Assembly: GCA_937127445.1 (NCBI GenBank)
Contig: CAKZLY010000018.1
Coordinates: 62,001-126,000 of the forward strand
Length of the DNA stretch: 64,000 nucleotides
From: Eximiradius sp.
GTDB taxonomy: Bacteria; Bacteroidota; Ignavibacteria; Kapaibacteriales; UBA2268
Direction: 5' to 3'
The position numbers and the translations under genes are program-made. Shown piece by piece: positions 6,501-16,051 of this stretch. Under the pieces are notes generated by a model, which was not told the DNA's origin, ran no database searches, and saw only the letters and a program-made list of their open reading frames with translations. The stretch's first letter is position 1; the number at the start of each line of letters is the position of its first letter.

Positions 6501-7889
6501 ATTGACTTGCCTTTGACGGTATCATTTATCTGGTATTCGTTCTTATCAGCAACGGGTTATACTTTGCAAGTATCAACAGTAAGTAATTTTTCAACTACAA
6601 TTTATAATCAAGTAGTAACAGATACGTCAGTTACAATTTCGAATCTTCAACCAAACACACAATATTATTGGAGAGTGCGTTCTCTGCGTGGGTCAGAAAT
6701 TAGCGCTTGGTCTACGGTTAGAACATTTACAACTGGCTCAGGACTCATTATACAATCATATTCGCTCTGGAATGGCTGGAATATGATTAGTGCATATGTA
6801 GAGCCAGTAAATAGTAGCATCAGCAACATTATGCAATCGTTAACAGGTAATTTGCAAATGCTCAGAAATTTTGCTGGGCAAGTTTATTCTCCTTCATTTA
6901 CTAATACGTTGACAAATTGGGATAAATATCAAGCTTATCAAATGAGGCTTACAACAAGTGCTGTCTTTAATTTAGAAGGAGCACAAATTGTCCCAGAAAA
7001 CACACCAATTACACTTAATATGGTAGGTTGGTATTGGTTGCCATATTTTAGGACATCGCCTGCATCAGTAGCAACTGCACTTGCCTCTATTAATGGGAAA
7101 TATTTACAGGTAAAAACAATTACTGGACAAGTATATATGCCTCCATTTGCTAATACGCTTACACAACTCGAACCAGGCAAAGGGTATATGATTCGCCTCA
7201 TTGTCAACAATGGAATTCTTACATATCCAGCAAACGGAGCAATTAAATCAACTGCTAACCACAATACAATCAAAGAGCCAAAATTCTTTGTTCGTCCAAA
7301 TATATCAACCGGTAAAAACTCATTCATAGCTCTTGATGTTCAAGCAAACGAAGGCGATGAAATTGGTGTCTTCACACGTGATGGATTACTTGTCGGGTCA
7401 AGCGTTTGGCAAGAGAGTTTACGTGGCGTAGTAGTCTGGGGTGATGATGAATTTACTACTGAAAAAGATGGTGCATACGAAGGCGAAGATTTGATTGTCA
7501 AAGTATGGAAGCATTCTAACGAATGTATTGGCAATCTTAAAATTACTGAAAACAAAGATTTGGCAAGCGGTAATCGTTCTTATTCTTTACGTTACGAAAC
7601 AGATGCTGTTGTTATGCTGAAAGGAACAGTTGAGATTGAAACATCAAGTGCGATAATCTCTCCACAACCAGCTTACAATGAATTGTTTATTGCTTTTGGG
7701 AAAGCATCGAATAGCGCAACTGATGTCGAGATTTATAATCAAAACGGTGATTTAGTGCTCAGATCAAACGTTAATGCTTCAAATGGGATAATTAAGCTCG
7801 ATGTAAGCAATTTGTCAAGTGGTGTATATAACGTAATAATTCGTACAGGCAATACAACTTTAAAAGAGAAAGCGTTGATTTTGAAATAA
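3513..7889 (+). CDS. Giant T9SS-exported multidomain surface protein
   Basis: Secreted protein of 1458 residues. In order: signal peptide (1-25, ending in Ser-Ala-Gln); a beta-rich domain resembling the proprotein-convertase P domain (about 26-155); a BNR-associated-like beta domain (about 160-270); a right-handed beta-helix with repeated Asn-rich turns (about 305-740); an Ig-like domain (about 790-885); two fibronectin-III domains (about 890-985 and 985-1090); a duplicated 70-residue unit with GQVYxPxFxNTLT (about 1095-1235); a further beta domain; and a type IX sorting domain (1378-1458) with SPQPAYNELFI at its start and a SGVYNVII strand. The AGAGGAG ribosome binding site before the ATG at 3513 is good. 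It should be exported by the T9SS and processed by PorU, which is encoded 48 kb away. The helix may bind or cleave polysaccharide, but no catalytic residues were identified. A strong terminator follows. Confidence 0.85.
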   Translation: MAKKCFTFLLAGILSLLLSANLSAQTQNLTFTVPNSPSQYAYYSNSLTDAGWTTFTRADTGLISSVSVTFTWMTDDWPDEGSLIIRHPDNTAYNLITNGVTSTGLTINANTTNTFTISFTTFANKLIAGTWQMYVLDSYGDGGHEITNITVSIDYTIPPPMSYTSSTVLQVTNSVSPGTPKAPVIAIRITTSGLSPAINATNFYLTTTGTTDLGDISNARIYYTGNSAVFDTTTQFGTVVATPTAAFNIVGNQTLLFGDNYFWLTFDVDSFATQYNFIDATCDSIIVNGITRFPTTTNPTGNRKIVAPFNGNYYVGTGQVYTNLSSLAFDISSVGLTGVVNIYIKNNITEPQRITFFAPPIGNGYQVRIRPDANVTATISANHGSQVMLVDGFNNIRIDGSNVPGGTTRNLTFANNSTASVAHGIFVQNCFMFELKNTNIQNGSSNTGTAVVVSTVNTATVQNNAISKANIGLTIQNNSQNINIIGNQIGSMTISNTVSVAGINFGTGTGFTTSCDGFTVANNKIDGLIYTGTSATFTYAFLINNAVNGIVENNEVLNVVNSAGHHIVFRIVANEATPPRDLNLIIRNNSVNNISVSASSGNFFGFYNTYSQNVKILHNTINIGSSSVAPVAIGQRYQVGCLNYHVNNNIFVMNPATTGGLKYIYYIDATQSVTPFANLNNNLYNIMTGANFAFYLGVVQATLANWTTTLGGGTSNSDYNSLMKLPSFASAGAPYLAGSVLADAEYLVPILVDAETDIDGEIRTTQNNLAGADILIPSEIQFSTNLPLSKEETAGISTVVYSITPQLGSTFNDGITRTPPTGDLPAMNYTWFFNNNEIQTGVNNFIVNRNNLSIINTNATNHNGQYYCVVNFFGTYGVTNTSTLSIVNLPRPVLTSPASGTQNVPITQVFTWGTVNTALQYQIQVAYDVNFQNVIASNIVGTNSTSFTSLPYFADMFWRVRAIRNADTSLWSEVWTFKTVGPPIAPPAIIAPNNNAIDLPLTVSFIWYSFLSATGYTLQVSTVSNFSTTIYNQVVTDTSVTISNLQPNTQYYWRVRSLRGSEISAWSTVRTFTTGSGLIIQSYSLWNGWNMISAYVEPVNSSISNIMQSLTGNLQMLRNFAGQVYSPSFTNTLTNWDKYQAYQMRLTTSAVFNLEGAQIVPENTPITLNMVGWYWLPYFRTSPASVATALASINGKYLQVKTITGQVYMPPFANTLTQLEPGKGYMIRLIVNNGILTYPANGAIKSTANHNTIKEPKFFVRPNISTGKNSFIALDVQANEGDEIGVFTRDGLLVGSSVWQESLRGVVVWGDDEFTTEKDGAYEGEDLIVKVWKHSNECIGNLKITENKDLASGNRSYSLRYETDAVVMLKGTVEIETSSAIISPQPAYNELFIAFGKASNSATDVEIYNQNGDLVLRSNVNASNGIIKLDVSNLSSGVYNVIIRTGNTTLKEKALILK

Positions 7890-7911
7890 TATAACATATA
7901 AACCAATTCAT

Positions 7912-7952
7912 AGAAAGGGAGTCGTTTTGAAAAAGCGACTCCTTTTCTATTT
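7912..7952 (+). terminator. Rho-independent terminator
   Basis: A 13-base-pair stem with one wobble pair (7912-7924 with 7936-7948) around the sequence GGAGTCG, with an 11-base loop and a following ATTTTC. It ends the transcript of the giant secreted protein. Confidence 0.85.
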
Positions 7953-8049
7953 TCGAACATTTGCTTATTTAAGAATATGTAGTCGGTGTCCTTTGGCATA
8001 TATTTTGCTGAATTAAGTATAAAATTATCGTATTTTTTGGGGGGAAATT

Positions 8050-13734: not shown

Positions 13735-13766
13735 AAAAATGCCCATCCAAAAAATATTGGATGGGC
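13735..13766 (-). terminator. Terminator of the hydrogenase-like chemoreceptor gene
   Basis: A perfect 10-base-pair stem (13766-13757 with 13750-13741, GCCCATCCAA arm) and a 6-base loop, followed on the minus strand by ATTTTTATTT. Confidence 0.8.
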
Positions 13767-13786
13767 AATAAAAAAATAAATAAGAA

Positions 13787-16051
13787 TTAATGATACCCAG
13801 AAAATCGGGCAACTTCGAAAGAAAGACGTTCAGAGGCTGCTCTAATTTTATTAGCTATTTCGTTATTTTCGAATGTGATTTTTTCTATTCCGTTGAAGAC
13901 TGTAAGGACCTCATTTAGAGAAGTAACTTTGAAAGAAACTTCTTGATTAATACTATCTGCCATAGAAGAAAGGTGTTTGGTGTTTTCAAAAATATTATTA
14001 GCAAATTCGCTTTGTTCTTTAGAAATTTTTGCGATAGTTTCAATCATATTTTGGATGTCAGCGAAACTGTTCAGAATATGATTTAAGCTTTGAGAAGCTT
14101 CGGAAGCAAGTTTTTGGCCTTCTTTAGCAACAGAGGCACCTTTATTGACAGAGTTAACAGCATTAGCGATATTAAGTTTGATCTCGTTGATAATATTTGT
14201 GATATTTTTTGTGAGTGCGTCAGTTCTGTCTGAAAGGACTTTCACTTCGTCTGCCACGACGGCAAATCCACGTCCGTGAACTCCAGCGCGAGCAGCTTCG
14301 ATAGCCGCATTCAAAGCAAGTAAATTAGTTTGCTTAGCAACACCTTTGATTTCAGCCAACATTTTATCAATAGATTCAGTTTGAGTTTCTACTAAGCTTA
14401 TTTCTTGAATAATATTGTTCATTTGCTCGTTCATATCCATAACTTTTGTGATAACTTTTTCTACGCTTTGTGAGCTTTCGCGAGCATTGTTCGTATCAGC
14501 AATTACTTTACGAGAAATGTCTTCTGAATTGCGAACAATTGAGTTAACCCCATCGTTTATCATCTGCATTGAACCAATTGTATCGTCAATATATTCAGTT
14601 TGTTGGGCAATATTATTTTTTATAATTTCGAGAGATTTATAAAATTCTTGCATAGAAGCCGAGAGTTCTTCAATGCTTGCAAGCTGAGTTTCCGAAGATC
14701 TAATCATTTTTTCGAAATTCACTTGAAGTTCCTGTTGGATAATATTTGCCACTCGCATAAGTAAGGTAAATCTAAAATGATGACAATTTTCGGGTTTATT
14801 CAGTCCGTTAAAGATTGCTTTTGCCATTTGCTCACAAGAGAGATAGCCACAAGCAGAGCAGTTTAGATGGTCTTTTTCGTCGTGTTTTTCCATTATATGA
14901 TATATTTTATCTAAATCTTTTTTAGATGGATTTTTGACTTTATAATTATCAGATAAATTGATATAAAAACGATCATAAAGATTTTTCTTCCAATAGCGAT
15001 TTACTTCATCCTGTATTGATTTAGCATCAGGCAATTCTGTTGAGCGTTTTTTATATAATTCGACCATTTTTCTATTTCTCTGCTCGATTAAAAACTCTAT
15101 TTCATCAGGCGATTTATGTTGATTTAATGTTCCTGGACCACCATTACAACCCATTTCACAATTCAAACAATCAATTAATAATGGTGCATAACCTTTTTCA
15201 ATATTTTGATATAAATGATCCAAATAGTGATAAATGATTTCAACACCTTCAATTTTACGGGAAACGTTAATAATATCAGGAACTTCGCGCATAGCGGTCC
15301 GCATAAGTCCACCGGGAGAAGAAAATAGCACAGCTCTTTCAGCAGGAGGATTATCATAATCAATAGCTGGAAATAAGTTGAGTGAAATATCGTGTTGTTT
15401 GAGATATTTATCAATTGATTTATACGTTACATTGAAATCACCAAGCCCTGTTTCATCGAACTCACGACGTTTGGCAAAACAAGGTGAAATTACTACAACT
15501 TTGTGATTTCTATATTGCGGATAATATTCTTTTATCATTTTGATAGTATGGAGCATAGGACTATCAGCTGGTGCAAGATATTTGAGCAACTCTAAACGGT
15601 AAATCTCGATATAGGTAACAATTGCAGGACAAGGCTGTGCAATAATTGCTTTTGGATTATTCTCTTTAAGGTGTTCAAGGTATGACTTAATCGTTAGTTC
15701 AGCACCGAAGGAAACATCAAAAATTGCTTGAACTCCAAGCGATTTCAGCCAACCATTTAGATTAAGATACATTTCTGGGAAGTTGGCAGCAATAGCAGGA
15801 GCGGCAATTGCAACAACGTCTTTGTTAAACTGCAAATAATTAAGAAAGGCATCGAAATCATCAATACCAATTCTTGCATCGTGTGTACATGCCTTGATAC
15901 AATTGCCACAGGCAATACACAAATTAGGATTGATTTTTACATAATTTCCTGTCGCGTCATTGCAAAACTTTGATGGACAAACAAGAATACACATATGACA
16001 ATTGACACATTTGTCAGAGTCGACAGTTACAACTTGTTTAAGTTCTCTCAT
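13787..16051 (-). CDS. Soluble chemoreceptor with an [FeFe]-hydrogenase-like sensor domain
   Basis: A 754-residue fusion. Two [4Fe-4S] ferredoxin motifs lie at the start (Cys15/18/21/25 and Cys45/48/51/55, each CxxCxxCxxxC). Residues about 75-340 are an iron-only hydrogenase large-subunit-like domain; Cys141, Cys191, Cys298 and Cys302 correspond to the four cysteines that hold the H-cluster. The usual second Cys of the TSCCP motif, the proton shuttle, is Pro140 here. A further Fe-S domain ([13 protein letters not shown], like PF04060) leads into a methyl-accepting chemotaxis signalling domain (about 450-754) with the canonical tip around [12 protein letters not shown] and [12 protein letters not shown]. 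No membrane segment is present. Group C hydrogenases are known as putative H2 or redox sensors; coupling to an MCP output suggests H2 or redox taxis through CheA. It is transcribed alone, with its own terminator. Confidence 0.85.

Follow-up and report, generated by a model that had tools for sequence, protein, structure and literature searches.

A predicted soluble chemoreceptor with a sensory-type [FeFe]-hydrogenase module in an Eximiradius genome

How [FeFe]-hydrogenases of groups C and D convert H2 into a signal was described as an open question in papers of 2020 and 2026. One gene in the 64,000-nucleotide stretch of Eximiradius sp. DNA analyzed here (the window) joins a hydrogenase-type module to the signalling domain of a methyl-accepting chemotaxis protein (MCP), and raises the question of what such a receptor senses and where its signal goes. 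We found that it is probably a cytoplasmic chemoreceptor with a group C-type [FeFe]-hydrogenase sensor, which signals H2 or redox state to CheA. The initial annotation had already pointed to an MCP-fused sensory hydrogenase. The fusion is real but not new: since 2016, HydDB (PMC5037454) has listed group C2, “Chemotactic (putative)”, in which the H-domain is coupled to an MCP and a role in H2 sensing is proposed. The receptor is an intact new member of this known, putative kind, to which the present analysis adds operon links, exchange of outputs and private pocket residues. In a Clostridium acetogen study, group C2 matches were dropped after a check of the H-cluster motif; a rumen study counted C2 among sensory hydrogenases. 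Our literature search, with most subscription journals outside its scope, returned nothing on H2 taxis by hydrogenase-type receptors and no experimental work on any member of the receptor clade. Hydrogen sensors of termite-gut treponemes were reportedly treated by Ballor in 2012, and relatives of the receptor may already be described there.

Architecture and predicted fold

The gene occupies the interval 13787-16051 given in the initial annotation and lies on the minus strand, where the reading frame runs uninterrupted from ATG at 16051 to the stop at 13787; the plus strand of this interval has stop codons throughout. Its features are listed from the whole gene through the N- to the C-terminal part, followed by the downstream hairpin.

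13787..16051, minus strand: hydrogenase-MCP fusion, soluble, 754 aa (ORF and Pfam)
15875..16030, minus strand: residues 8-59, two [4Fe-4S] ferredoxin motifs, C15/18/21/25 and C45/48/51/55 (Pfam Fer4/Fer4_7)
15134..15823, minus strand: residues 77-306, H-cluster domain (Pfam Fe_hyd_lg_C, 111.4 bits, cut-off 22.1)
15629..15634, minus strand: Pro140-Cys141, Pro at the proton-shuttle position (CpI C299) and the first cubane ligand kept (Pro in 53/54 family members, Cys in 54/54)
15479..15487, minus strand: Ser189-Pro190-Cys191, Ser at the M353-equivalent and the second cubane ligand (Ser in 52/54, Cys in 54/54)
15146..15172, minus strand: L3 motif Asp294-Cys295-Leu296-Asn297-Cys298...Cys302, third and fourth ligands (family alignment, no variation from Asp294 through Asn297)
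14780..14866, minus strand: residues 396-424, C-terminal Fe-S motif Cx2Cx4Cx16C with C398, C401, C406 and C423 (PF04060 FeS, 31.5 bits, cut-off 23)
14438..14782, minus strand: residues 424-538, helix joining the Fe-S domain to the MCP coiled coil (full-length AF2 model, helix 424-568)
13964..14437, minus strand: residues 539-696, MCPsignal domain, hairpin tip at about residue 590 (Pfam, 125 bits, cut-off 34.6)
13740..13767, minus strand: intrinsic-terminator-like hairpin, 11 pairs and a T-run, directly 3' of the stop codon (3 sites of this kind in the region against 1.3 expected from shuffling)

Each segment of the fusion proposed in the initial annotation, that is, two ferredoxin motifs, H-domain, PF04060 and MCP domain, was matched by a Pfam HMM (Fer4 in two stretches, 31.8 bits), and the same scan found neither HAMP nor PAS in the receptor. 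The protein was also correctly described as having no membrane anchor: no transmembrane segment was detected, and the highest 19-residue Kyte-Doolittle mean was 1.16. All 16 predicted cluster-ligand Cys, including the eight of the ferredoxin motifs, were invariant in 53 sequences. The gene looks monocistronic, since 394 bp upstream are free and the terminator-like hairpin lies just past the stop. A promoter scan was uninformative (15 sites versus 13.8 expected). The neighboring genes, read from ORFs as a prolyl-oligopeptidase-type peptidase, Rho and exonuclease VII, were functionally uninformative, and no hyd or che genes adjoin the receptor gene in the host.

Structure prediction bore out the hydrogenase-like nature of the N-terminal part. 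The AlphaFold2 model of the H-module had a mean pLDDT of 91.6 and a pTM of 0.90, and [FeFe]-hydrogenases ranked first in Foldseek. VIA-align gave Z 37.0 to CbA5H (rmsd 2.7, 343 residues) and Z 33.8 to holo-CpI (4xdc; rmsd 3.0, 347 residues); these comparisons, and what is said here on the fold, concern residues 1-371 and barely touch the C-terminal Fe-S domain (372-443). CpI and CbA5H, solved group A enzymes, have the H-domain fold and the four cubane ligands in common with the receptor; however, they are catalytic, group A retains the shuttle Cys, Met353 and Met497, and both a C-terminal Fe-S domain and an MCP part are missing. In the full-length AF2 monomer, the MCP tip lies between helices 424-568 and 608-753; pLDDT of the MCP part was only about 60-75, lower still at the tip, and the hairpin was read from secondary structure only. 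The nearest solved structure for this part was the T. maritima MCP (PDB 2ch7), whose likeness to the receptor is limited to the signalling hairpin.

Place among [FeFe]-hydrogenases and the H-cluster site

The H-domain tree compared the receptor family with other Fe_hyd_lg_C proteins from carrier genomes, which were assigned to groups A to D from motifs in the literature rather than from reference sequences. The family was monophyletic (SH-aLRT 100), with a long stem branch of 1.64 changes per site, and, as the initial annotation had anticipated, grouped with the sensory groups C and D (50 rows, SH-aLRT 89), apart from A and B. The branching order of the family and several group C lineages was poorly supported. 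Similarly to groups C and D, the receptor has no proton-shuttle Cys, and its Cx2Cx4Cx16C motif is shared with both groups. By architecture, the receptor belongs to the HydDB C2 type, which is itself defined by a similarity network: a sensory-type H-domain is joined to a methyl-accepting chemotaxis domain. The PAS domain that follows the Fe-S domain in group C M2f was not found in the Pfam scan.

Two characterized proteins were informative in this regard. TmHydS of Thermotoga maritima (group C, M2f) has, like the receptor, two N-terminal [4Fe-4S] clusters, no shuttle Cys and a C-terminal Fe-S domain followed by a signalling domain, but carries Ala131, Gly177, Ser267 and PAS where the receptor has Pro140, Ser189, Leu296 and a PAS-free MCP hairpin. 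TamHydS of Thermoanaerobacter mathranii (group D, M2e) shares with the receptor the Cx2Cx4Cx16C domain, Ser at the CpI Met353 position and Leu at that of Met497; in contrast, it has no output domain. Group D membership was considered, as Ser189 and Leu296 hinted at it, the former fitting the M2e Ser/Thr at the M353 position. However, the tree and the Asp-Cys signature argue against it, because group D conserves an Asp directly ahead of both the first (D378) and the last (D403) Cys of the C-terminal motif, and the receptor has Asn397 and Asn422 there. The Glu252 proton-relay position of group D aligns to Leu249, in a loop where the alignment with group D is uncertain. Group B was rejected as well, as the best NCBIfam match, FeFe_hydrog_B1, scored only 132.6 bits where the cut-off is 450, and the tree separates the two; catalytic group A was ruled out by motifs and tree.

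Other outputs were observed in group C. Two group C H-modules of Fuchsiella alkaliacetigena (L125:2282-4522, plus strand; L126:5953-8211, minus strand) have a sigma-54 AAA+ activator bearing a Fis-type HTH as their fused output, which is absent from HydDB classes C1-C3. In another group C-like H-module (L128:1484-3376, minus strand), the Cys499-equivalent aligns to Asp, and one cubane ligand is seemingly lost.

The residues of the H-cluster site were those named in the initial annotation. Cys141, Cys191, Cys298 and Cys302 were read in the translation and do not vary among the 54 family members, and neither do Pro246, Asp294, Cys295, Asn297 and Asn303; Lys194 and Glu197 of the L2 motif are also invariant. 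Cys295, Asn297 and Asn303 occurred at these positions in no other hydrogenase group sampled. Among 30 group C sequences, Pro246 and Asp294 had three occurrences each; Leu296 is frequent in this group, and Ser189 is the group D state. A decayed former hydrogenase was ruled out, because the pocket residues are invariant across phyla. The annotation had also taken poor turnover as a sign of a sensor. It is true that Pro replaces the canonical proton-shuttle Cys, and slow turnover is therefore expected, so that the module would be a switch more than a catalyst. Nevertheless, loss of this Cys alone is no proof, as slow H2 turnover persists in characterized enzymes of groups C and D that lack it.

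H2 binding should not be assumed, since the receptor pocket is unlike that of every characterized enzyme. H-clusters react with CO and O2. It is conceivable that the cluster binds CO, or O2 as a repellent, instead of H2, and the fast reaction of TamHydS with O2 is in line with this idea; yet an elevated CO tolerance has been described for groups C and D, and the host has several H2-metabolizing hydrogenases, which fit H2 better, and we consider such a role very improbable.

Family members, outputs and gene neighborhoods

The family scan used one genome per species and yielded 65 loci, 52 of which had a full H-module aligned with the host receptor. About 50 homologues keep the same H-module (49-94% identity over residues 1-443) with all 16 predicted ligand Cys invariant, which indicates that this architecture did not arise by chance. 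They come from Spirochaetota, Bacteroidota, Ignavibacteriota, Bacillota, Thermodesulfobacteriota, Fibrobacterota, Riflebacteria, Hydrogenedentota and Acidobacteriota; Fuchsiella alkaliacetigena and Clostridium sp. ZS2-4 are carriers other than metagenome bins. Among 54 full-length members, MCPsignal was the output in 48, a histidine kinase with response regulator in two, and a SpoIIE phosphatase in two. The other two are L018 (5596-8785, plus strand), which has no MCP, stops shortly past the Fe-S domain and immediately precedes cheR and cheB, and L052, which is frame-broken and has its MCP part in a different frame. Beyond these 54, L149, a relative from the host's own bacterial family, has a kinase output. 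On the H-module tree the outputs need five changes, and well-supported branches force at least two kinase-type and at least two phosphatase-type changes; outputs were therefore exchanged. Thus, the output label does not strictly track the H-module in this clade. The lengths aligned to MCPsignal in different members are offset by roughly 7 or 14 residues per step, and these alignment lengths suggest that even the MCP hairpin may have been exchanged. Hairpins that stop well short of the full MCPsignal profile, possibly without the adaptation region, were seen in L017, L049 and L050.

Gene neighborhoods of relatives linked the receptor to both chemotaxis and H-cluster maturation. In two Riflebacteria (L028 and L061), the receptor gene has CheA on one side and CheW-CheB-CheR on the other, and in L028 the CheA and receptor genes touch end to start. 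CheA, CheB, CheR or CheW genes were present within about 6 kb at approximately 15 loci. Of the 50 carrier genomes, 45 have FliM/N. Within the host phylum, the family occurred in 5 of 395 sampled genomes, all five with FliM/N versus 92 of 395 overall; as the five belong to two families, this association is confounded by kinship and provides weak evidence.

These data also bear on the destination of the signal. A chemosensory-type output other than flagella (gene expression, c-di-GMP or pili), which could be combined with either input, would agree with the presence of two CheA proteins in the host and with the five carriers without FliM/N. These include L018 and L019, a Bacteroidales genome in which the receptor adjoins a cheW-cheR-cheW-MCP cluster. 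We regard such an output as quite unlikely, as flagellar switch genes are present in the other 45 carriers and in the host, where FliM and FliN are on the same contig as one of the other MCPs.

With regard to maturation, HydE, HydG, aspartate ammonia-lyase and HydF come directly after the receptor gene, in the same orientation, at the Desulfuromonadales locus L039; the first three gaps measure 41, 21 and 27 bp, and the fourth junction is an overlap. Of the evidence gathered here, this apparent transcription unit speaks most strongly for a complete H-cluster in such receptors. In general, HydG was detected in 37 of 50 carrier genomes. At strict cut-offs, HydF was absent from 11 of the 13 carriers without HydG, and present in the other two and in two positive controls. 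The 11 genomes are spirochaetes (L016, L026, L027, L030, L031, L032, L033, L037, L040, L048 and L053), seven of which form one clade of the receptor tree. Possible explanations are missing contigs in incomplete assemblies, an unrecognized maturation route, or receptors that work without the diiron site of a complete H-cluster. Fe_hyd_lg_C proteins scoring like group A were retained in the same 11 genomes.

The main rival of H2 sensing is redox sensing through the ferredoxin clusters. The protein would then be an energy-taxis receptor whose ferredoxin-like clusters at the N-terminus come into equilibrium with the ferredoxin or NADH-linked carriers of the cell; the H-domain would hold only a [4Fe-4S] cubane or act as a structural relay, with no direct sensing of H2. 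Pro140, the altered pocket and the 11 spirochaetes without HydG and HydF fit this model. However, the retention of group A-like hydrogenases in these genomes implies that the missing maturases are not peculiar to the receptor, and the invariance of the four cubane ligands, Lys194 and Glu197, together with the receptor-hydE-hydG-aspA-hydF operon of L039, argues against it. On balance, we consider redox sensing of this type unlikely.

The host genome (2.45 Mb, 99.2% complete) contains both machineries. HydE, HydF and HydG, for which the annotation had proposed a search, are all present, HydG and HydE side by side. Six Fe_hyd_lg_C proteins were found: four of group A, all scoring above the A6 model cut-off, one group C HydS and the receptor. 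The chemotaxis set comprises two CheA, CheR, CheB, a CheZ-like protein and CheW proteins, and there are only three MCPs, whose aligned MCPsignal lengths lie 14 residues apart in either direction; judged by these lengths, the three may belong to different length classes. Besides, three host group A proteins (L002, L003 and L004) have an L1 motif TSCSP instead of TSCCP, which places Ser opposite a cubane ligand in the alignment; other group A sequences sampled share this feature. The HydS is a second sensory hydrogenase of group C-like type, overlapped at its end by a SpoIIE-type phosphatase gene; the two genes lie at L140:5041-6828 and 6804-7955, plus strand.

Proposed signalling and its implications

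Most likely, H2 or a linked redox state is sensed and CheA is signalled, and we infer that H2, rather than another redox cue, would be the ligand. The H-domain probably houses a full H-cluster built by HydEFG. Binding of H2, or electrons arriving from the ferredoxin-type clusters, would alter the state of this cluster, and the change may pass through the C-terminal Fe-S domain and the continuous helix to the MCP hairpin. The hairpin would then raise or lower the kinase activity of CheA, biasing swimming along an H2 or redox gradient.

A more far-reaching interpretation, which we put forward as tentative, is that the clade is a distinct subgroup of sensory hydrogenases with a rebuilt pocket in which Cys295 is active in H-cluster chemistry. 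It would provide dedicated H2-taxis units in several phyla, some with their own che operon (cheA-receptor-cheW-cheB-cheR) and others with their own maturase operon (receptor-hydE-hydG-aspA-hydF), and its sensor module would have moved between chemotaxis, kinase and phosphatase outputs. The rebuilt pocket would be that of the invariant Pro246, Asp294, Cys295 and Asn297 and the nearly invariant Pro140.

The maturase and che operons of relatives are arguments for H-cluster loading and for chemosensory wiring, respectively. Fuchsiella alkaliacetigena and Clostridium sp. ZS2-4 are organisms in which the receptor could be tried. As the covalent MCP fusion offers a readout, CheA activity or swimming, the question of how H2 is converted into a signal becomes testable in this family.
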